Origin: Adhaeribacter radiodurans
GTDB lineage: Bacteria > Bacteroidota > Bacteroidia > Cytophagales > Hymenobacteraceae
Assembly (NCBI RefSeq): GCF_014075995.1
Contig: NZ_CP055153.1
Location: forward strand, 2,790,001 to 2,854,000
Direction: 5' to 3'
DNA length: 64,000 bases
Below the pieces are notes generated by a model, which had not been told where the DNA came from, ran no database searches, and was given only the letters and a program-made list of their open reading frames with translations. This document shows positions 4,229 to 54,737 of the stretch, in pieces. How positions within the stretch are numbered: the stretch's first letter is position 1; each line of letters begins with the position of its first letter. The position numbers were made by a program, and so were the translations under genes.

Positions 4229-5143
4229 ATGAAAACTTCCCGCAGAACATTTATTAAAACCAGTGCGGTAGCATTAGCTGGCTCGGCTCTTTGGAGCAAG
4301 CAGCTTTTTGCCGCTAAAAACCCAAAAGAAATCGTTGGTGTTCAACTTTATTCGGTGCGCGACGAGATGAAAGCCAACCCGCTGGATACGTTGCAAAAAG
4401 TTGCTAAAATGGGGTACAAAAACGTAGAGCACGCGGGTTATAGTAATGGTAAATTTTATGGCTACGAGGCATCTGAATTTAAGAAAATTCTGAATGATTT
4501 AGGCCTGAAAATGCCGAGCGGACACTCTGTTTTGGGAAAGCAACATTACGATGCTGATAAAAAGGACTTCACGGATGAATGGAAAAAAACCGTAGATGAT
4601 TCAATTACAGTAGGTCAGAAATACGTGATTAGCCCTTCGATGGATGAGAGTTTACGGGAAGATGCAGATGGCTTAATGCGCTTTTTAGATGTATTTAACC
4701 AATGCGGGGAACTCTGCAAAAAAGCCGGCGTTAAATTTGGCTATCACAACCACGATTTTGAGTTTACAACCAAGCTGAATAATAAAACAATGTTCGATAT
4801 TATTATGGAAAACACCGACTCAAAACTGGTGGCCCAACAGCTGGACATAGGCAATATGTATGGTGCGGGCGGACGGGCATTGGATATCATGAAAAAGTAT
4901 CCGGGAAGGTTTGAATCGATGCACGTGAAAGATGAAATTAAAAGTGAGAAAGGTGAAATGGGTGGTTACGAAAGTACTATTTTAACCATGGGCGTGATAC
5001 CCGTTAGGGAAATAATGGAACTAGGCCGGAAAATGGGCGGCACTACTCAGTTTATCATCGAACAAGAATCCTATCAAGGTAAAGAGCCATTAGTATGTAT
5101 AAGCGAAGACTTAGCCATGGTGAAAAAATGGGGTTTCAAATAA
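4229..5143 (+). CDS. Sugar phosphate isomerase/epimerase family protein, Tat-exported
   Basis: A 304-residue xylose isomerase-like TIM-barrel protein. The N-terminus carries a clear Tat signal (KTSRRTFIKTSAVALAGSA). Family features are VGVQLYSVRDEM at the first strand, GYHNHDFEF in the middle (metal-site region), QQLDIGNMYGAG, MHVKDE and the late IIEQESYQG glutamate. Cytoplasmic relatives isomerise or epimerise sugars or keto-sugars; exported relatives are common beside exported Gfo/Idh/MocA proteins, as here. The substrate is unknown. A strong terminator follows directly, so this gene ends the plus-strand group beginning at 1841, although a 219-base gap precedes it and it may have its own promoter. 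Confidence 0.85.
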   Translation: MKTSRRTFIKTSAVALAGSALWSKQLFAAKNPKEIVGVQLYSVRDEMKANPLDTLQKVAKMGYKNVEHAGYSNGKFYGYEASEFKKILNDLGLKMPSGHSVLGKQHYDADKKDFTDEWKKTVDDSITVGQKYVISPSMDESLREDADGLMRFLDVFNQCGELCKKAGVKFGYHNHDFEFTTKLNNKTMFDIIMENTDSKLVAQQLDIGNMYGAGGRALDIMKKYPGRFESMHVKDEIKSEKGEMGGYESTILTMGVIPVREIMELGRKMGGTTQFIIEQESYQGKEPLVCISEDLAMVKKWGFK

Positions 5144-5202: not shown

Positions 5203-5271
5203 CGATCTAATTTATTTTTAGAGTATTTAATGCAAGTTTTACATACTACATTCCATAATAATATCTAATAG

Positions 5272-5620
5272 TAAAAAGAACCTTATAGAGTTCAAGTACC
5301 ACAAATTTTCAAAACAGGATTGTTGGGGAATAGAAGTTTAAAACAGTTTTTTCTACTTACTCCCGTCTTCCTGGAAGTATTTAACCGATTTAGAATGACT
5401 GCCGCAGATTAGTCTAGAAAGTTATAGTAGTTAATCTCTTTTACTACCAATAATCTGTTCTTCTTTTCTGCCGGTTAGATCCTTCCAGGATGACAAAAGA
5501 GGAAGAAGTATGTATTACTTAATTACAGCTCAGGCAGGTTTTCGACATTCCTGTTTTCAATACCCATCAGGTTGGCTTCTTTTTAATCTACTCTTATGAT
5601 AATTAGTACATACTGGCTGT
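5272..5620. repeat. Dispersed fold-back intergenic repeat, copy A
   Basis: This stretch aligns over its length with 31136-31463 (copy B) and 34913-35262 (copy C). An 18-base block, TTCTTTTCTGCCGGTTAG, is identical in all three copies (here 5461-5478), as is a 17-base block starting AATAGAAGTTT (here 5329-5345). The element is also an imperfect inverted repeat: the sequence near AAAACAGGATTG (about 5311) recurs inverted near 5541-5559, and an inner pair occurs around CCTGGAAG (5370s) and its inverse (5480s). No reading frame is shared by the copies, so it looks non-coding. It could be a MITE-like element or a structured RNA; no transposase is nearby. Confidence 0.75.
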
Positions 5621-5711
5621 TAATAAATATTTAGGTAAACAGAAGTTTTATTCCGCATTGATAAGGATCAAAAGTAACCAAAAACTTTTTAAACCTTCTC
5701 TAAAGTACCTT

Positions 5712-6281
5712 TCAGGTGCGTGATATTTGTAGTTTATCCGTAATCCAAAGAATAAATATAGCTTCCGCAACCAATGTAAACGGAATCACAGATAAATTTT
5801 TAAAGAAAAGTAAAATTGTCCATTCCGAGGAGGTAGTCATTAAAATACCTTTATTTTTGAGGGATAGCAAAAGGCAAGTTTTATAAGCTAGGTGCTCTAT
5901 TAATAAATTTATTAGAAAAGCTATCAGCAAAAAGCAGGCAAAGTTAAGCAGTATGGCTACCCATTGCTTTTTTATTCTTCGCTTTGCTGCTACCAATAGT
6001 TGTCGTCGGTTAGCTTTCTGCGTTAAAAATAGCTTAATTCTGACCAGCCCTTTTTTTAAACTGGCGAACCCAAGCACGTAGACAAAAAGTAAAATACGCG
6101 CCGATTAAATAATTACTTCTAAAGCAATATTTAACCACAAAGGTATTTGACCAAAGCCACCTAATTGAATTACTCGGCCAAAGGCCGCTACCAAGCCAAG
6201 TGCTAATGTTAAATTAAAGTGCTTTTTTACAAAATAAAGTAATCGACTAGCCAGGTAGCTTCAGAAGTCAGATTATATCAT
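5712..6281 (-). pseudogene. Decayed multi-pass membrane protein gene
   Basis: The minus strand has one open piece from 6077 to 5712 (121 residues) with two hydrophobic segments (WVAILLNFACFLLIAFLI and a C-terminal IPFTLVAEAIFILWI). The same frame continues upstream with membrane-like sequence (NLTLALGLVAAFG, then QIPLWLNIALEVII) and is broken by TAA at 6107-6105. Further stops lie at 6263-6261 and 6275-6273, just after an in-frame ATG at 6281. In-frame, composition-compatible protein sequence on both sides of the stops points to a longer integral membrane protein damaged by nonsense changes. The family is not recognised. The 121-residue remainder could still be expressed. Confidence 0.55.
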
Positions 6282-22235: not shown

Positions 22236-22345
22236 AGTAGTTCACCATCTTATTTTTCTGAGTAAAAAAAAACGAACAGCCTCATTTAAAACCCAATTGT
22301 ATTTAGCGGTTTCCTATTAAAATGAAGGTAAAATCATTGCGGTAT

Positions 22346-22378
22346 AAACTCGGCAGGTTTTTAAAACCTGTCGGGTTT
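22346..22378. repeat. Near-perfect 33-base palindrome
   Basis: Arms 22346-22361 and 22363-22378 pair over all 16 positions (two as G-T wobbles) around one base, with a CAGGTTTT/AAAACCTG core. It lies in the 373-base gap 22236-22608, which otherwise holds no convincing gene. It may be a terminator for the SnoaL-like gene or a REP-like element; it lacks a distal T-run. Confidence 0.6.
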
Positions 22379-22608
22379 GAACGAAAGAAGTCCCTTTTTA
22401 CTATTTGGTAGATTAAGTTTCATTAAACGAACTTCGAACAAGGTTCCAATTATTTTCCTTGTCAAACAGCTTGGTAGTGCTTTAACTAAAAAAGCCGAAA
22501 CAGTATATTCTTTATTGGATTTCCTGATGCCTGGAACTTTTCAAAATTTTACAAATTCAATCTTATAACTAAACATAATACCTAATCAATCCACAATCCT
22601 ATTTAACT

Positions 22609-30044: not shown

Positions 30045-30290
30045 TACTGAATTATATAAACTAAGTTGATTCATTTAAAACTTTAAGTACATCCATTTAG
30101 GTATTATTTAAAAATCTCTTTAAAGGATAGAATAAATAGTGCCAGTTTTAATTGAGTAAATTGAAGAAGCCGGGTTACCTATTTTACAAGAAGAACTACG
30201 AACAATTAAAAGATGACATTTTAAATTGAGAACTTCTTTTACAAAAGCCGAATGCTAATTTTGGAAACAAAATGCTTAAACTTATTAAAG

Positions 30291-30935
30291 ATGAACATTG
30301 CTATTTTTGGAACGGGGCGGATGGGTAAAGGAATAGTGAAAACTTTTTACCAGTATTCTCCTCACACCATTTTATTTAGCGGTCGGGAAAAAGAACGGGC
30401 GCAAAATGTACTGCACGAATTACAAATTGATTTATTAGCTGTTAGCATGGAAGAAGCGCTTCAGGCTGATGTAATTATTCCGACGTTGTGGTTTAAAGAT
30501 TTACTGCCTTGGGCCGAAAAGTATAAGGAATTATTAAAAGGAAAAATTGTGATAGATATTGTTAATCCGTTTAACGACAATTTTGACGATTTTACCACAC
30601 CTTATAATACTTCTGCCGCCGAAGAATTACAAAAAGTAATACCGGATAGTACCGTAGTAGGTGCTTTTAAAAATACGTATTGGGTAGTTTTTGATAACCC
30701 GGTTTTGCAAGGCTTAAAAAGCGATATTTATGTTACTGCTGATGACGAAAATGCCCGCCAACAAATAAAGGATTTATTAAAACCTTTGCCTTTCCGGGTG
30801 TTAGATGCAGGTTTGTTAAAGAATAATCGAACTATTGAACGGATGACTCTGCTTGCCGCTGAGCTTGCCCGGAAAGCTGGTAGCCATCCCAGAATAAGCT
30901 TTAACCTTTGGGGCTTAGAACACGAAGGTATTTAA
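30291..30935 (+). CDS. NADPH-dependent F420 reductase-like / NAD(P)-binding protein
   Basis: 214 residues from the ATG at 30291; an ATG 13 codons upstream (30252) would add a non-conserved leader. The N-terminal Rossmann site is NIAIFGTGRMGKGI, followed by ILFSGREKERAQ, ADVIIPTLWFKDLLPW, IVIDIVNPFND and VVGAFKNTYWVVF. These match the F420-dependent NADP reductase-like superfamily. Because Bacteroidota generally lack F420, it probably reduces another acceptor or acts as a pyrroline-carboxylate reductase-like enzyme. A standalone gene. Confidence 0.8.
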   Translation: MNIAIFGTGRMGKGIVKTFYQYSPHTILFSGREKERAQNVLHELQIDLLAVSMEEALQADVIIPTLWFKDLLPWAEKYKELLKGKIVIDIVNPFNDNFDDFTTPYNTSAAEELQKVIPDSTVVGAFKNTYWVVFDNPVLQGLKSDIYVTADDENARQQIKDLLKPLPFRVLDAGLLKNNRTIERMTLLAAELARKAGSHPRISFNLWGLEHEGI

Positions 30936-31135
30936 AATTGGTATCTTAAATTAAACGAGTACCATCCAAGAATAAGTTGCTAAAATCAAACAGCTTAAAT
31001 AGTCTTTTATCTTTTTTTAGTTTAATTAGAACTTTCAGTATTGTAGTTGTATTTACTTTATTGTTCCCTCAAAGTACTTATTGTAATTAAACCCAATCAC
31101 CTAAATGAATTGCACTAAGGGGCTATGGCTTTAAA

Positions 31136-31463
31136 TCCGGTAGGTTTAGAAAACAAGATTGTCATAAATAGAAGTTTAAAACAACTTTTATAACCTACCT
31201 CCATCATACTGGAATGATCTTATTAATATGAAGTGACTGCCGCAGAGTGGTCTGGAAAGTTATAGTAGTTAATCTACTTTATCACCAATGATCCAATCTT
31301 CTTTTCTGCCGGTTAGTTCCTTCCAGGATGACGAAAGTGGAGGAAGTATCTATCATCATCAGACTATTGTTACGGGTGGTTTTCGATATTCCCGTTTTCT
31401 AAACCTACCAGTTTGCTCCTTTTTCATATCTATTAGGGTATTTAGTAAATTGTAGTTGGTATT
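31136..31463. repeat. Dispersed fold-back intergenic repeat, copy B
   Basis: The second copy of the element at 5272-5620 and 34913-35262. Its ends include a perfect 16-base inverted repeat, GGTAGGTTTAGAAAAC at 31139-31154 and its complement at 31394-31409. The invariant block TTCTTTTCTGCCGGTTAG is at 31299-31316 and the AATAGAAGTTT block at 31167-31183. It occupies the middle of a 750-base gap (30936-31685) that holds no gene. Confidence 0.75.
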
Positions 31464-31685: not shown

Positions 31686-34600
31686 TTACTTATTCGAAAA
31701 GTAAATCCAATCGAGGTTAAATAAATTTTGTTGATTTGGATTGGTGCCGGTAAAGACAAAATATAAATCGTGGATGCCTTTTGTTTTCTGGTTGAAGGGT
31801 GTTATTACCTCCTGCCACTTGCTTTTAGCATCCGTATTTTTAGCTGCCGGAATAATAATGCTACTTACCAAGGTACCATTAGGCTGATCGAGATGTACTT
31901 CTATGTTTCCGCCAGGGCCGCTGGTTTGCACCCGGTAAGTAAGGCTTTTTAAATGAGTAAGGTCTATATTTTTAAATTTTACGAAACTTTGGTGGTTAAT
32001 AGTAGTGGCGTACGTTAAAAATTCAGTGGTAACGGTACCTAGTTTTACGTTGCCTTCGTCGTAATCTTCTACCTGTACCAAAGGGTTACGCAATAAAATA
32101 TAATCCCGATCACTTAAAGGTTCCATGGCATTGGCTCCTTTATCGGTATACAGGGCTGTTAACAGGTAAGAGCCTTCTTTGCCTTGCCCCAGGTGACTTT
32201 TTAAAGCTAAATTTCCATTAAGTGGCAAAGAGGAAGTTGATTCTTTTAAAGACAAAATATATCGTACTATTTCCGTAGCATCTGCTTCGGGTAAATCCGG
32301 GTGGGCCGACATAGTACGTTGTCCCCAATTACCACTGCCGCCCGTAATTATTTTATGGGCTAATTTTTGTTCAACGCCAACTTTCCCCGAATAACGCGCT
32401 GCCACGGCTACGTAAGCAGGACCAACGGAAGTTTGATTTTGGGAATGGCAGGCTTTACAATCTAAAGTAGATACTAAATACTGACCTTTCGCAAATTGTA
32501 CGTTCACCGAAGTTGGCGAACGGGTGAGCGCTACTGCTACGTCTTTACCTTGCGGCATATAATTCCAGGTAAGGCTTACCCGTTTCGGGTCGATTACTTT
32601 GTCTTCGGTGTCTTTTACTTTTACCTGGTAATCAAGCGAGGTATTGTCCCAGTAGAAACTCCGGTTAGCAGTGGTTGTAATATTTACCTCGGGCGGCGCA
32701 TTGCCAGCTTTTATTTGCACCATTGAAGTACTGCTTTCGCGGTGGTTATCGCTTACTGTTAAAGTTACGTCGTGAATTCCGGGTTGGGTAAATGTATAAG
32801 TTATTTGCTCTCCGGTAAAATGCTTACCTGCTACTTCCCAGGTAAATTGAAGGCTGTCGTTTTTATCATAATCTTTGGAATCAGCGGCCGATAGCTTCAC
32901 TTGAAAAGGCACTGCCCCGTATAAATTATCTGCTTTAATATTAGCTATTGGTTTGCGGTTTCCTTCGGCGTATTCTACCCGTATTAAGCGGGCATCGTTA
33001 TTTTTGGCAAACCAGTTAGTACCGTATTCTAATATATAGATAGCCCCATCCGGAGCAATTTGCATATCTGTGGGAGCCGCAAAGGTTATATGATCCAGAA
33101 AAGGCTCCATGCGCAGGTAATTTTTATTTTCATCGAAAGATACAGCCATAAACCAACGCCTTACCCAATCGTAAATTATAAGCTTTCCATCGTAATATGA
33201 GGGCAATTTGTATGGGGCATTTGGAAATAAATCGGAGTAATAAACCGGCCCTGCCAAAGCCGATTCGCCGCCTTTACCTACCAAAGGAAAATGCTTAGAA
33301 GCTCCGTCGCCGTACCAAATCATGGCCGGTTGGGCCGGGGGTAATTCCCGGATGCCGGTGTTATTGGGAGAATTGTTTATCGGCTTTTGCGGATTAAATA
33401 CAGTAGACCGAAAAGCTTTTGTGGCGTAATCATAGTAAGGAAATACTTCGTTATTTCCTAAAAAGTAAGGCCAGCCATAAAATCCGGGTTTACGGGCCTG
33501 GTTAATTTCATCGTAACTTAAAGTTCCTTCTGAGGCGGGTACTTTGGTATCCGGTCCAATATCGCCCCAGTATACAAAATTATTTTTGGGGTCAACCGAG
33601 AAACGATACGGATTGCGGTGGCCCATGGTGTAAATTTCGGGCCGGGTTTTAGGGGTTCCTACCGGAAATAAATTGCCTTCCGGAATGGAATAAGAACCAT
33701 CCGGCTCGGGTTTAATGCGCAAAATTTTTCCGCGTAAGTCGTTGGAGTTAGCGGCCGTTGCCTGGTCATCCGCCAATTGCCGGCCCGGACGTTCGTCAAT
33801 GGGTATATAGCCTTCGGTTTCTTCGGCGTTGGTATTATCGCCAGTAGCCAAATACAGCAGGCCATCCGGGCCAAAATGCAGGTAACCCGCCGAGTGGCAG
33901 CAATATTTTCTTTGAGTGGGAATTTCGAGTAAAAATTTTTCCGTACTTCGGTCCAGATTATCTTGCCGCAATTCCATTCGGGCCAGGCGGTTTACGGCTT
34001 TTTCGCCGGGTACGGCGTAGTAAAGGTATATCCAGTTGTTTCGGGCGTAGCCCGGATCGGCCGCTACTCCCAGTAATCCATCTTCGATGCCGCTAAATAC
34101 TTCTATATTCGCGATGGTTTTGGTTTGTTTTGAGTTGGCATCAAACAGCTTTACGGCTCCTTTACGTTCTACAAATAATACGTTATTTCCGGGTAGCAGA
34201 GCCATTTGCATAGGTTCGTTCATACCCTGGCTTAAAACCTGATAGGTATAGCGGCTGGAATCCGGCACCGGCAAAGTAGTTGCCTTACTATAATCCGGCA
34301 GGTTGCTTTCAAGGTCAGTTATTTCGAATACGGTTCCAACTTTTTCCGGTGAATGATCAGCTTGGGATAAAAGAAGAAGCTTGCCGCTTTCCGGTTTTAC
34401 TTTTTTATCAAGTATAAAATTTTGTAAATCAGTTCCCCAAGCTTGTGTTTGGGCATTATTACTTGAATCAGTTAAAGCTAGTATTCCTCCCCCGGCCTCC
34501 ATAAACCGTCTCAAAGAAGTAATCTGCCGATGGTTTAGTTGAGAAAGCGAGAAGGACGAAAGTACAAGACGCTGGAAATTTTTTAAAGAATCATCAACTA

Positions 34601-34802
34601 AATAACTACTATTCAAAGCCTTTGTAATTTGCCAATTGGCTTTAGTATTTGTTTTTTCTAATGATTCTCCTATATCAGAAATATCTCCGTATATCAACAT
34701 TCGGGGGTGAACCTGCGAAGCAGTTGTGCTACTGGTGTTAGTTCTGGTGGAACAAGCAACGAGAAAGATGGATAGCCATAGTAGCAAATAATGAGTGCGC
34801 AT
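31686..34802 (-). CDS. Multidomain lipoprotein: sugar dehydrogenase-type propeller, PKD, cytochrome c, CBM6-like
   Basis: 1038 residues from the ATG at 34802, where a lipoprotein signal starts (LWLSIFLVACS, cysteine near 17); an upstream in-frame extension is unlikely. Residues 30-150 resemble a degenerate ThuA/glutamine-amidotransferase-like domain (FMEAGGGILALTDS). Residues 190-600 form a glucose/sorbosone dehydrogenase beta-propeller (GMNEPMQMALLPG; GHRNPYRFSVDP). A PKD domain follows (PGIHDVTLTVSDN), then a monohaem cytochrome c with CKACH at 782-786, and a C-terminal CBM6-like module (VQVEDYDEGN to NLDWIYF). The design suggests a surface enzyme that oxidises carbohydrate and passes electrons to the haem. 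The substrate is unknown. Confidence 0.88.
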   Translation of the reverse strand: MRTHYLLLWLSIFLVACSTRTNTSSTTASQVHPRMLIYGDISDIGESLEKTNTKANWQITKALNSSYLVDDSLKNFQRLVLSSFSLSQLNHRQITSLRRFMEAGGGILALTDSSNNAQTQAWGTDLQNFILDKKVKPESGKLLLLSQADHSPEKVGTVFEITDLESNLPDYSKATTLPVPDSSRYTYQVLSQGMNEPMQMALLPGNNVLFVERKGAVKLFDANSKQTKTIANIEVFSGIEDGLLGVAADPGYARNNWIYLYYAVPGEKAVNRLARMELRQDNLDRSTEKFLLEIPTQRKYCCHSAGYLHFGPDGLLYLATGDNTNAEETEGYIPIDERPGRQLADDQATAANSNDLRGKILRIKPEPDGSYSIPEGNLFPVGTPKTRPEIYTMGHRNPYRFSVDPKNNFVYWGDIGPDTKVPASEGTLSYDEINQARKPGFYGWPYFLGNNEVFPYYDYATKAFRSTVFNPQKPINNSPNNTGIRELPPAQPAMIWYGDGASKHFPLVGKGGESALAGPVYYSDLFPNAPYKLPSYYDGKLIIYDWVRRWFMAVSFDENKNYLRMEPFLDHITFAAPTDMQIAPDGAIYILEYGTNWFAKNNDARLIRVEYAEGNRKPIANIKADNLYGAVPFQVKLSAADSKDYDKNDSLQFTWEVAGKHFTGEQITYTFTQPGIHDVTLTVSDNHRESSTSMVQIKAGNAPPEVNITTTANRSFYWDNTSLDYQVKVKDTEDKVIDPKRVSLTWNYMPQGKDVAVALTRSPTSVNVQFAKGQYLVSTLDCKACHSQNQTSVGPAYVAVAARYSGKVGVEQKLAHKIITGGSGNWGQRTMSAHPDLPEADATEIVRYILSLKESTSSLPLNGNLALKSHLGQGKEGSYLLTALYTDKGANAMEPLSDRDYILLRNPLVQVEDYDEGNVKLGTVTTEFLTYATTINHQSFVKFKNIDLTHLKSLTYRVQTSGPGGNIEVHLDQPNGTLVSSIIIPAAKNTDAKSKWQEVITPFNQKTKGIHDLYFVFTGTNPNQQNLFNLDWIYFSNK

Positions 34803-34912
34803 ACAAAAAAGTAGAAATGTAATCCGGCACAATATAAAAATAAAATACTTGCTAAAGCTAGTGCTTGTTTGTAAGCAATTCACCTGCGAATAAAAGAAAC
34901 TTATACCAAATA

Positions 34913-35262
34913 ATAAAAAGAACCATCAATAGTTCTAACCTGGCAGATTTTCAAAACAGGGATGCCCAAAATAGAAGTTTAAAACAGTTCTTTCTACTTA
35001 CTTCCGTCATCTTAAATGGATTTCAATTTAGAGTGACTGCCGTAATGTTTTCTAGAAAGTTATAACAGGTAATCTCCTTAATTATCTATGATCTGTTCTT
35101 CTTTTCTGCCGGTTAGTTCCTTCTAGGATGACTAAAGAGGAAAAATTATGTATTACTTGAGTATAATTCCAGCAGGTTTCCGGCATTCCTGTTTTTAATT
35201 CCTACCAGGTTGGCTTCTTTATAATATACTCTTGTTGTAAATAGTAAATACTACCTGATATT
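34913..35262. repeat. Dispersed fold-back intergenic repeat, copy C
   Basis: The third copy of the element. The terminal inverted repeat is 34937-34966 against 35182-35211, identical at 24 of 30 positions (AACCTGG near the outer edge, AAAACAGG inside). The invariant TTCTTTTCTGCCGGTTAG block is at 35099-35116, and AATAGAAGTTT at 34970-34986. The copy fills most of the 550-base gap 34803-35352; no gene is seen there. Confidence 0.75.
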
Positions 35263-41756: not shown

Positions 41757-41802
41757 AATTTGTTGTTGCTGAAGGATCGTGTATATCATAGGTTCATTAT
41801 GG

Positions 41803-41881
41803 CGCGGATTTACTTCCGTGCCTCGCCCACATATCTCTTCTCAGTATAGCAAATTATGAAAGTCACGGAAGTAAATCCGCG
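41803..41881. repeat. 79-base element with perfect 18-base inverted ends
   Basis: CGCGGATTTACTTCCGTG (41803-41820) and its exact complement (41864-41881) flank 43 bases. It lies in a 281-base gap between convergent genes. It is unlike the fold-back family; it may be a REP/MITE-like unit or a long hairpin. There is no distal T-run. Confidence 0.75.
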
Positions 41882-42037
41882 AAATGGTAAACTTCTTTTT
41901 CATCTAAGTTAAGAATACCAAAATACCTGAACTTAGACAATCTACACATAGCCAAATTAGAAATACTTACTTTAATAGTTTTAGAATTGATTACCGGACT
42001 AAACCGAAAAGTGGAAAAATCTTAATTTAGTAAATAA

Positions 42038-51740: not shown

Positions 51741-54737
51741 ATGAAACCACGATTTTATCGTTATTTCCTGATCCAAACCCATCAGGTAGAAAGGTATAAT
51801 TGGCGCTGCCTGTGTACTATCTTGTTACTTATTGGCAACTTATGCACCATTAGCTTCGCTCAAACTAAAATCTGGGATAAAACCTTAGGTGGCAGCGGTT
51901 ATGATGATTTATACTCCCTTCAACAAACCCGGGACGGTGGCTACATTGTGGGCGGGTATTCTTCTTCGAACATAAGTGGGGATAAATCCCAAGCTGCCAA
52001 AGGCTATACTGATTATTGGATTATAAAACTACGAGCGAATGGCACCAGAGAATGGGATAAAACTTATGGCGGCAATTACAGCGATGATTTAGCTTTACTT
52101 CAGCAAACCCGGGATGGCGGGTATATTTTGGGTGGTACTTCATTTTCAGGTAAAAGCAGCGATAAAACCGAAGCTAGTGCAGGTCATAGCGCTTACTGGA
52201 TAGTTAAATTAAAAGCCGATGGCAGTAAAGAATGGGATAAAACCTTTGGTGGCAATAATGAAAATTATTTAACTGTCATTCAGCAGACAAGTGATGGTGG
52301 GTATGTATTGGGAGGATATTCTTCTTCGGGCAAAAGCGGAAACAAAACCGAAGGTTCTAAAGGAGGCTATGATTTTTGGGTGGTAAAAACAAGCGCCAAT
52401 GGCACCAAAGAATGGGATAAAACATTAGGAGGCAACGGTTATGATAATTTGTACTCTCTCCGGCAAACCCAGGATGGCGGTTACATATTAGGAGGTACTT
52501 CTGCTTCGGGCATAAGCGGTGATAAAACCCAAATTAATAAAGGTGATTGTGCCGAAAATGGATGCAGCACCACCGATTATTGGATAGTGAAACTAAACGC
52601 TGCCGGCTCCAAAGAATGGGATAAAACTTTGGGTGGCGATGATAATGACAGGCTAAAATCTTTGCAACCAACCAATGATGGTGGCTATATTGTGGGAGGG
52701 CACTCCATATCAGGAAAAGGCGGCGATAAATCGGAAGCCTCTAAAGGTGGCTTTGACTACTGGGTAATTAAACTAAGTGCAACCGGCACGAAAGAATGGG
52801 ACAAAGCATTTGGGGGAAATGATAGTGATTATTTATACTCTCTTCAGCAAACTAGGGATGCGGGTTTTATTTTAGGAGGTAACTCTAAGTCAGGCAAAAA
52901 TAACGATAAAACGGAGGCAAATAAAGGTTCTACAGATTTCTGGGTAGTAAAAATAAGCGCCAACGGCATTAAAGAATGGGATAAAGCTTACGGAGCGGCT
53001 GGTGAAAATTATTTAACTGCTTTCCAACAAACCAATGAGGGCGATTATCTTCTGGGAGGTACTTCTTCGGCAGGCAAAAGCAACGATAAATCAGAAGCCT
53101 CAAAAGGCGGTTTTGATTTCTGGTTAGTGAAGCTAAAAGACGATCAACCCCGCATTGCCGAATGGAATTTACGTTATGGCGGTAATGGTAACGAGGGTTT
53201 TACTACCATAATTAAAACGTCGGACGGGGGTTATCTAGCCGGTGGTTATTCCAATTCAGGTAATGGTGGGGATAAAACGCAAAATAGCCAAGGTAAAAAC
53301 GATTATTGGATTGTAAAAACCGATAAAAATGGTAAAAAAATATGGGATAAACGGTACGGTGGTTCTGGCGATGATTACCTGAATCGCATTATTCCTACCC
53401 AAGATGGAGGCTATTTATTAGCGGGTTCTTCTCTTTCGGGTAGTGGCGGCGACAAAAGCCAGCCTAGTCGGGGTAATCGTGATTATTGGATTGTAAAAAT
53501 CAACAATAATGGCGCAAAACAATGGGATAAGCGTTACGGCGGCTCTGGTTTCGATGAATTGAAGAAAGTTATTCAACTCGCCTCCGGCGAATACCTGTTA
53601 GTAGGTAACAGCAACTCGCCATCCAATGGTGATAAAAGTCAAGATAGCCGGGGTGAGAACGATTTTTGGTTAGTAAAAATTAATAATTCAGGTTCTAAAA
53701 TTTGGGACAAACGCTTTGGCGGTAACTTAGACGAAGCTTTGGGCGGCATAGTATCCACTTCCAATGATGGCTATTTATTAGGTGGTAGTTCTGCTTCGGG
53801 TAAAAATGGAGATAAGAGCGAAGAAAGCCGGGGCGGCAATGATTTTTGGCTGATTAGTCTGGATAAGAACGGCACTAAACTATGGGATAAATCTTACGGA
53901 GGGAGCGGTAACGATGAAGCATACTCTTTAGGCCGGACGGGTAATGATTACTTTATTTCGGGGCAAAGCAATTCTCCTGCCGGAATGGATAAAACTCAGA
54001 ACAGCCAAGGTGGCAAAGATTTTTGGTTAATTAAAGTAACCAGCACAGGCAAAAAAATCTGGGATAAGCGTTTTGGTGGGGCTAAAGAAGAAGAACTCCG
54101 TGCTAGCACGCAAACTAACGACGGTGGATATATACTGGCTGGAACATCGTACTCTGAAAAGAGTGGTAACAAAAGCCAGAATAGCCAAGGCTTAGGCGAT
54201 TATTGGATCGTAAAAACTAATAAGGATGGACAATTCGAGTGGGACAAACGTTATGGTGGCAGCGGAGGCGAAGAATTGCGCGCCGTGATCCAGGCCAATG
54301 ATGGTGGTTTGCTGTTAGCCGGAAAGTCCGCCTCGGGTGTAAGCGGGGACCGGACTCAATCTAGTCAGGGTGGAACCGATTACTGGCTGGTGAAGGTAGC
54401 ATCTGAATTAGTAGAAGCTCCTTTAGCTTTTGCAAAGAAAGTAAATCCAATTGAAGAATCCGCTGATCTTACCAGTCAGGTATATTTAATGGCTTACCCC
54501 AATCCAAGTAAAGAAAAAGTAAAAATCAATTTTTCATTATCCAAAACCCAGTCCGTCAGGTTAAAAGTTTATGACAGCCAAGGAAAAGATGTAATTACAT
54601 TATATCAGGGGGAAGCAACAGCTAATCAAACTTATGAGGTAAACTGGCAAGCGGGTAATCAATCGACGGGCATGTATTTTCTGCAACTTCAAACGGCTAC
54701 TAAAAACCAGCAAGTAAAGCTACTCTTAACTAAGTAG
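51741..54737 (+). CDS. Secreted 14-repeat protein with T9SS sorting domain
   Basis: 998 residues. A signal segment (CTILLLIGNLCTISFAQ) is near residue 28-44. From about 46 to 895 the protein consists of 14 units of roughly 60 residues, each starting WDK(T/R)(Y/F/L)GG, then Q(T)xDGGY(I/L)LGG(T/Y)S, then SGxxGDKSQ and DYWIVK. Units 1-7 read KEWDKTLGG with EASKG, whereas units 8-14 read WDKRYGG with NSQG. The last 80 residues (YPNPSKEKVKINFSLSKT to VKLLLTK) are a type A T9SS sorting domain. Function unknown; it is likely displayed on the surface. The GH105-like gene follows 41 bases later. Confidence 0.88.
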   Translation: MKPRFYRYFLIQTHQVERYNWRCLCTILLLIGNLCTISFAQTKIWDKTLGGSGYDDLYSLQQTRDGGYIVGGYSSSNISGDKSQAAKGYTDYWIIKLRANGTREWDKTYGGNYSDDLALLQQTRDGGYILGGTSFSGKSSDKTEASAGHSAYWIVKLKADGSKEWDKTFGGNNENYLTVIQQTSDGGYVLGGYSSSGKSGNKTEGSKGGYDFWVVKTSANGTKEWDKTLGGNGYDNLYSLRQTQDGGYILGGTSASGISGDKTQINKGDCAENGCSTTDYWIVKLNAAGSKEWDKTLGGDDNDRLKSLQPTNDGGYIVGGHSISGKGGDKSEASKGGFDYWVIKLSATGTKEWDKAFGGNDSDYLYSLQQTRDAGFILGGNSKSGKNNDKTEANKGSTDFWVVKISANGIKEWDKAYGAAGENYLTAFQQTNEGDYLLGGTSSAGKSNDKSEASKGGFDFWLVKLKDDQPRIAEWNLRYGGNGNEGFTTIIKTSDGGYLAGGYSNSGNGGDKTQNSQGKNDYWIVKTDKNGKKIWDKRYGGSGDDYLNRIIPTQDGGYLLAGSSLSGSGGDKSQPSRGNRDYWIVKINNNGAKQWDKRYGGSGFDELKKVIQLASGEYLLVGNSNSPSNGDKSQDSRGENDFWLVKINNSGSKIWDKRFGGNLDEALGGIVSTSNDGYLLGGSSASGKNGDKSEESRGGNDFWLISLDKNGTKLWDKSYGGSGNDEAYSLGRTGNDYFISGQSNSPAGMDKTQNSQGGKDFWLIKVTSTGKKIWDKRFGGAKEEELRASTQTNDGGYILAGTSYSEKSGNKSQNSQGLGDYWIVKTNKDGQFEWDKRYGGSGGEELRAVIQANDGGLLLAGKSASGVSGDRTQSSQGGTDYWLVKVASELVEAPLAFAKKVNPIEESADLTSQVYLMAYPNPSKEKVKINFSLSKTQSVRLKVYDSQGKDVITLYQGEATANQTYEVNWQAGNQSTGMYFLQLQTATKNQQVKLLLTK

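Follow-up and report, generated by a model that had tools for sequence, protein, structure and literature searches.

A dispersed palindromic MITE family with IS630-type ends, and a palindromic core common to two MITE families, in Adhaeribacter

The repeated intergenic element of about 360 bp that occurs three times in a 64,000-nucleotide stretch of the Adhaeribacter radiodurans genome (here called the window) very probably belongs to a MITE family, which we call class A, that is moved in trans by an IS630-family transposase whose intact cognate was not found in this genome. As read from the DNA, the family has ends related to those of IS630 elements, is dispersed over the genome and is absent from orthologous sites in a relative, whereas mobilization in trans and duplication of a TA target are what these features would imply. 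Class A itself is an ordinary, mostly decayed MITE of a familiar kind, and at its apex it carries a palindromic core that also sits in MITEs of an unrelated transposase family.

An earlier note on this DNA had described three copies of roughly 330 to 350 bp (5272-5620, 31136-31463 and 34913-35262), and these extents held approximately, the terminal repeats placing the ends slightly wider (Table 1). Alignment confirmed that the three copies match end to end in one orientation, and a repeat finder recovered them independently (families D4, D5 and D7). Two blocks are indeed invariant, but the alignment of the three copies gave lengths of 17 (AATAGAAGTTTAAAACA) and 20 bases (TCTTCTTTTCTGCCGGTTAG) rather than the 18 and 17 that had been proposed. 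The positions are intergenic, as had been stated: none of the 48 window open reading frames (ORFs) of at least 100 aa, the size class used for this test, overlaps any copy, and at ~360 bp the elements are short and without coding capacity. Copy 1 lies between the convergent genes 4229-5143(+) and 5712-6077(-), and copy 2 between the convergent genes 30252-30935(+) and 31686-34883(-). The window also contains, at 51741-54737, a 998-aa ORF with tandem repeats of ~180 bases (60 residues), which make up repeat families D1 to D3.

Table 1. Positions of the class A copies, their parts and associated elements (window coordinates unless a genome position is given)
Feature	Position	Strand	Remarks
MITE class A copy 1 (the element first described)	5262..5622	+	extent by terminal repeats
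MITE class A copy 2	31089..31461	+	left end degenerate
MITE class A copy 3	34904..35259	+	between tandem minus-strand genes, upstream of a 1065-aa ORF
Left terminal repeat of copy 3 (TACCAAATAATAAAAAGAACC...)	34904..34935	+	end matching IS630-family ends
Right terminal repeat of copy 3 (TATCAGGTAGTATTTACTATT on minus strand)	35240..35259	-	
Conserved island TCTTCTTTTCTGCCGGTTAG	5459..5478	+	all 20 bases identical in copies 1 to 3; also the best stretch of 18 columns across 14 copies
Palindromic core GTCATCCTGGAAGGATCTAACC	5473..5494 (G000:C2:2795473-2795494)	-	common to IS982-type MITEs
MITE class B, ~121-bp sister element	22290..22410	-	class A left end, small palindrome replacing the long middle
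IS982-family element L284	G000:C2:5584576-5585557		982 bp long; 313-codon frame open; same ends as the ~205-bp class E MITEs
IS982-family second copy L283	654776-655761		broken frames

The expectation that the genome would hold many more copies was borne out. A single copy used as the query found 25 places in the 6.9-Mb genome, and with the majority consensus, for which E<=10 gave 66 rows (among them short fragments, ends common to other elements and matches of the palindrome to itself), 18 places covered at least 188 of the 366 consensus bases, in addition to fragments. The single orientation seen in the window does not extend to the genome, where both strands are used; 7 of the 18 copies lie on the minus strand and were turned before alignment. 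The class A element is an imperfect palindrome throughout, without genes, with the ends TACCAAATAGTAAAAAG... and ...CTACCTGGTA. It starts with TACCAAATAGTAAAAAGAACC and ends with CTACCTGGTA, usually with TTA or TAA before and after it, and the terminal inverted repeat TACCARRTAGTA is present at both ends.

The identity of the likely partner came from the ends. Consensus matches at E<=0.001 were found in six of the eight Adhaeribacter genomes searched, including A. radiodurans itself, and in Adhaeribacter aerolatus NBRC 106133 (G001) the sole match, over consensus positions 1 to 31 (E 1.7e-4), was the end of an IS630-family element. Related elements occur once in G001 and in three copies in a second relative, G004; they are 1,157 to 1,158 bp long, have two overlapping frames with HTH and DDE_3 domains and no stops in the matched frames, and the four copies have ends of the type TACCAAATAGTAAGAAGAACTTTCCATAAG. 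The left end of the MITE agrees with these four IS ends at 26, 26, 23 and 22 of 32 positions, against a maximum of 20 among the 60,772 32-mers of the window. The right end agrees at 20, 21, 21 and 22 of 32, a range in which unrelated window 32-mers reach 21 and which is therefore not decisive alone; the case for this end rests on TACC..NTAGTA plus CCATA at equal spacing, as judged by eye. The DDE half of the transposase scored 106.3 bits with the IS630 model NF033545 (cut-off, 100) and was also above the cut-off for PF13358, and the N-terminal ORF of the G004 element (57.7) fell under the IS630 cut-off.

No intact cognate transposase was found in the A. radiodurans genome, where PF13358 matched two places, both unsuitable: one IS630 element was rejected because it has other ends and an in-frame TAA, and the other because it contains two TGA codons. 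The G001 transposase frame likewise found only two remnants there, at 33 to 35% identity. Separately, an unrelated IS630 element at L136 has, immediately beside its right end near position 2016, 27 bases that resemble the right end of class A (TAATACCAGGAAGTATTTGTTAG).

The class A left end is not confined to class A. By eye, we assigned at least seven class B and five class C elements that have this end joined to other middles, working from an end-pattern search whose 27 matches include chance matches and class A copies (the reversed pattern gave 2). The class C elements (L085, L096, L097, L098 and L103) combine the IS630-type left end with a long GC-rich middle (TTTGCCTCGTGGCCGGCGGGCC...). 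We also noted a further imperfect palindrome (GGCGCGGATTTACTTCCGTGCC / AGTCACGGAAGTAAATCCGCG) at window positions 41792-41892; its motif recurs within L096 (class C), next to the IS630 element in G001 (L060) and, in the relative G007, within two elements (L291 and L293) of class E, which is described below.

Comparison with another Adhaeribacter genome, G003, which is syntenic with the window stretch compared, provided evidence of insertion polymorphism. The anchors around copy 3 are 604 bp apart in A. radiodurans and 234 bp apart in G003, and those around the class B copy 351 and 215 bp apart, so that the elements are absent there at two of three orthologous sites; the copy 2 site is rearranged in G003, with 4,255 bp between the anchors, and is uninformative. 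For copy 3, the only site scored in this way, the G003 sequence aligned better to the joined flanks (score 180) than to the flanks plus the element (105); the comparison with G004 was made against joined flanks only. The G003 flanks are too diverged for the empty site or a duplication to be read base by base. The consensus has TA at both termini, and equal 3-nt flanks were seen in six elements, by a script that found both ends in 18 of 22 and misplaced several.

The genes around the elements were compared with the neighborhoods available in the window. Among 20 loci, the 19 with a gene called on both sides comprised 10 convergent, 9 tandem and 0 divergent arrangements, compared with 6, 17 and 8, respectively, among 31 window gaps of 100 bp or more (Fisher p = 0.018 for divergent and 0.027 for convergent; all calls were simple ORF calls). 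The lack of loci between divergent genes is as expected if insertions that disrupt promoters are lost.

All 15 loci fetched from G003 match the consensus: 14 do so over 138 to 349 bp at 60 to 68% identity, and L251 in pieces no longer than 60 bp. The G003 copies fold as strongly as those of A. radiodurans. Class A therefore predates the split of the two lineages or was active in both. Across 120 genomes of the bacterial family, 21 have a consensus match at E<=0.001. Six are Adhaeribacter; in the other 15 the match is limited to stretches of 22 to 41 bases, for the most part in the 3' half of the core, and one genome (G114) also matches the IS-like end.

The earlier note had left two explanations standing, an old non-autonomous mobile element or a repeated structured RNA. 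The former is supported by the IS630-like terminal inverted repeats, the dispersal on both strands and the absence from two of three orthologous sites. The latter, a regulatory RNA or mRNA 3' structure whose fold is kept by selection and whose mobile origin is long past, now appears highly improbable. Each of 14 near-full copies does fold, at -70.1 to -112.8 kcal/mol, conserved islands are present, and there is a modest excess over shuffles in two of five measures: pairs changed on both sides (21 against 14.9; 11 of 500 shuffles reach 21) and cells with a two-sided change (26 against 18.6; 20 of 500). Two-sided changes numbered 54 against 33.9 expected, and 30.4% of one-sided changes keep the pair against 26.7%. 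However, pairing was 83.2% of cells against 82.8% in shuffles (47 of 500), the covariation score was 0.122 against 0.119 (148 of 500), and further pair types numbered 75 against 76.2. Of the 54 two-sided changes, 25 keep the pair and 29 break it, and one-sided breaks number 263, so that broken pairs far exceed compensated ones. Paired and unpaired columns have diverged almost equally (0.139 and 0.155), RNAalifold gave the 14 copies a poor consensus of -20 kcal/mol (the majority sequence folds at -116.5), and a scan of the whole window against Rfam gave nothing at gathering score, the best of the looser Rfam matches having an E of 0.78. The search for compensatory changes that the earlier note had called for thus went against the RNA: hairpin pairing mostly decays copy by copy, and the class A fold is not being maintained. 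Quasipalindrome correction can produce an excess of two-sided changes, and either this process or the relatedness of the copies could account for the weak excess.

A rolling-circle or Y1 (RAYT/IS200) enzyme moving the element as a REP/BIME-type repeat, in place of IS630, would fit the REP-like palindromes in the interior and the hairpin shape. We disfavor this idea as very improbable, since the full-length terminal repeats match IS630 ends and classes B and C keep the ends and change the middle. On the IS630 reading, a full-length IS630-family element would supply transposase in trans, the enzyme would recognize the common ends (TACC..NTAGTA...) and it would move or copy the element into intergenic sites that are rich in AT and contain TA; the copies in A. 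radiodurans would now be decaying because its genome was found to contain no intact cognate transposase gene.

Decay does not account for every feature of the interior. Conservation is clustered, with a variance of 18-column windows that was exceeded in 1 of 5,000 permutations, and it peaks at CTTCTTTTCTGCCGGTTAG, a block that is also among the best kept between A. radiodurans and G003. The islands are real, are more conserved than the plain decay of a dead MITE predicts and are not fully explained; the likeliest, though unproven, cause is constraint on the copying lineage.

At the class A apex lies a 22-bp palindromic core that is also found at the apex of a second group of elements, class E. 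The ends of class E, TAACGTGMGTTCGANNTAA, were counted 25 times in A. radiodurans (G000), 24 in G004, 34 in G007 and once in G005 (control, 1). They flank the 982-bp element L284, whose ends share their first 13 bases with a class E element and whose frame belongs to the IS982 family (249.4 bits against a cut-off of 130). With up to two mismatches, the core GTCATCCTGGAAGGANCTAACC occurs in 4 of the 120 genomes, all Adhaeribacter (39 matches in G000, 18 in G003, 13 in G007 and 12 in G004), compared with none for the reversed core in these four genomes and one over all 120; the full 22-mer was not found outside Adhaeribacter among the 120. Scans of genomic and viral contigs gave no match to the exact motif, a weak result in which the A. 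radiodurans genome itself was possibly excluded. Among the 33 matches listed of the 39 in G000, 23 lie in class A alone, 8 are near an IS982-type end without being in class A, 1 combines both settings and 1 has neither, and cores near an IS982-type end make up 10 of 12 in G004, 9 of 13 in G007 and 0 of 18 in G003, a genome in which the IS982-type end was not found. The hosts of the core are thus IS630-type elements in G000 and G003 and IS982-type elements in G000, G004 and G007. The core is present in each of the five paired class E elements of ~205 bp in G000; of 12 further paired elements chosen as coreless in the list, 6 keep both halves within 2 to 6 mismatches, and the other 6 have one half or degraded pieces of it.

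Its presence in class A and class E means that one core rides on two unrelated transposases. We tentatively suggest, as a reading that falls only a little short of probable, that the MITE interior carries a separately mobile REP-like palindrome, such that the core, GTCATCCTGGAAGGATCTAACC together with its inverted partner, entered, or was exchanged between, two MITE families and rides on its host's transposase. Its occurrence in both IS630-type and IS982-type elements across four genomes and the finding, in other genera of the family, of shorter sequences that match its 3' half favor this reading, but a common origin through recombination or template switching between palindromes, or convergence when one element is exchanged into another, would look no different, and the full 22-mer is confined to 4 of the 120 genomes, all of one genus. 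It is possible, though less likely than not, that the core is a hitchhiker of the two MITE families that either promotes the spread of any palindromic element hosting it or tolerates such spread, in which case hairpin modules would be exchanged and the core would be the long-lived unit.

The closest known system in its mode of working is RUP with IS630-Spn1. RUP is intergenic and noncoding, has IS630-family-like terminal repeats, inserts at TA and is enriched between convergent genes; it is 107 bp long, with 108 to 110 copies and its IS in the same genome (PMC2229807, PMC3049150). Class A resembles it in all of the former respects, its insertion at TA being presumed, but differs in its length of ~360 bp, its ~18 substantial and more diverged copies, the failure to find an intact cognate and the several middles on one set of ends. 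The Correia/NEMIS elements of Neisseria share TA termini, terminal repeats and longer and shorter forms that differ by an internal segment (PMC2229807); they have other ends and lengths of ~107 and ~155 bp, a comparison of descriptions and not of sequences. Class E shares with class A the core at its apex but has other ends (TAACGTGAGTTCGA), a length of ~205 bp and an IS982-family transposase. The core itself is like the CGTC-tagged REPs (De-novo grouped REP families), which are described as having no transposase dedicated to them and as perhaps being mobilized by a wide range of these enzymes, in its CGTC/xGTC tag, AT first stem bases and short loop (PMC3733652). Unlike them, it is inverted inside larger elements and its tag varies, with CGTC, TGTC, AGTC and GGTC all seen by eye. 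No description of class A was found in the literature searched, most subscription journals lying outside the search.

Taken together, these results name a likely partner for an intergenic repeat family of a little-studied genus and show one set of IS630-type ends carrying several different middles. They also provide a natural case of the same hairpin core in MITEs of two unrelated transposase families, through which the spread of palindromes that lack a transposase becomes testable in laboratory strains; if the core is a hitchhiker, this would explain in concrete terms how palindromes of the CGTC type can spread with no transposase specific to them.
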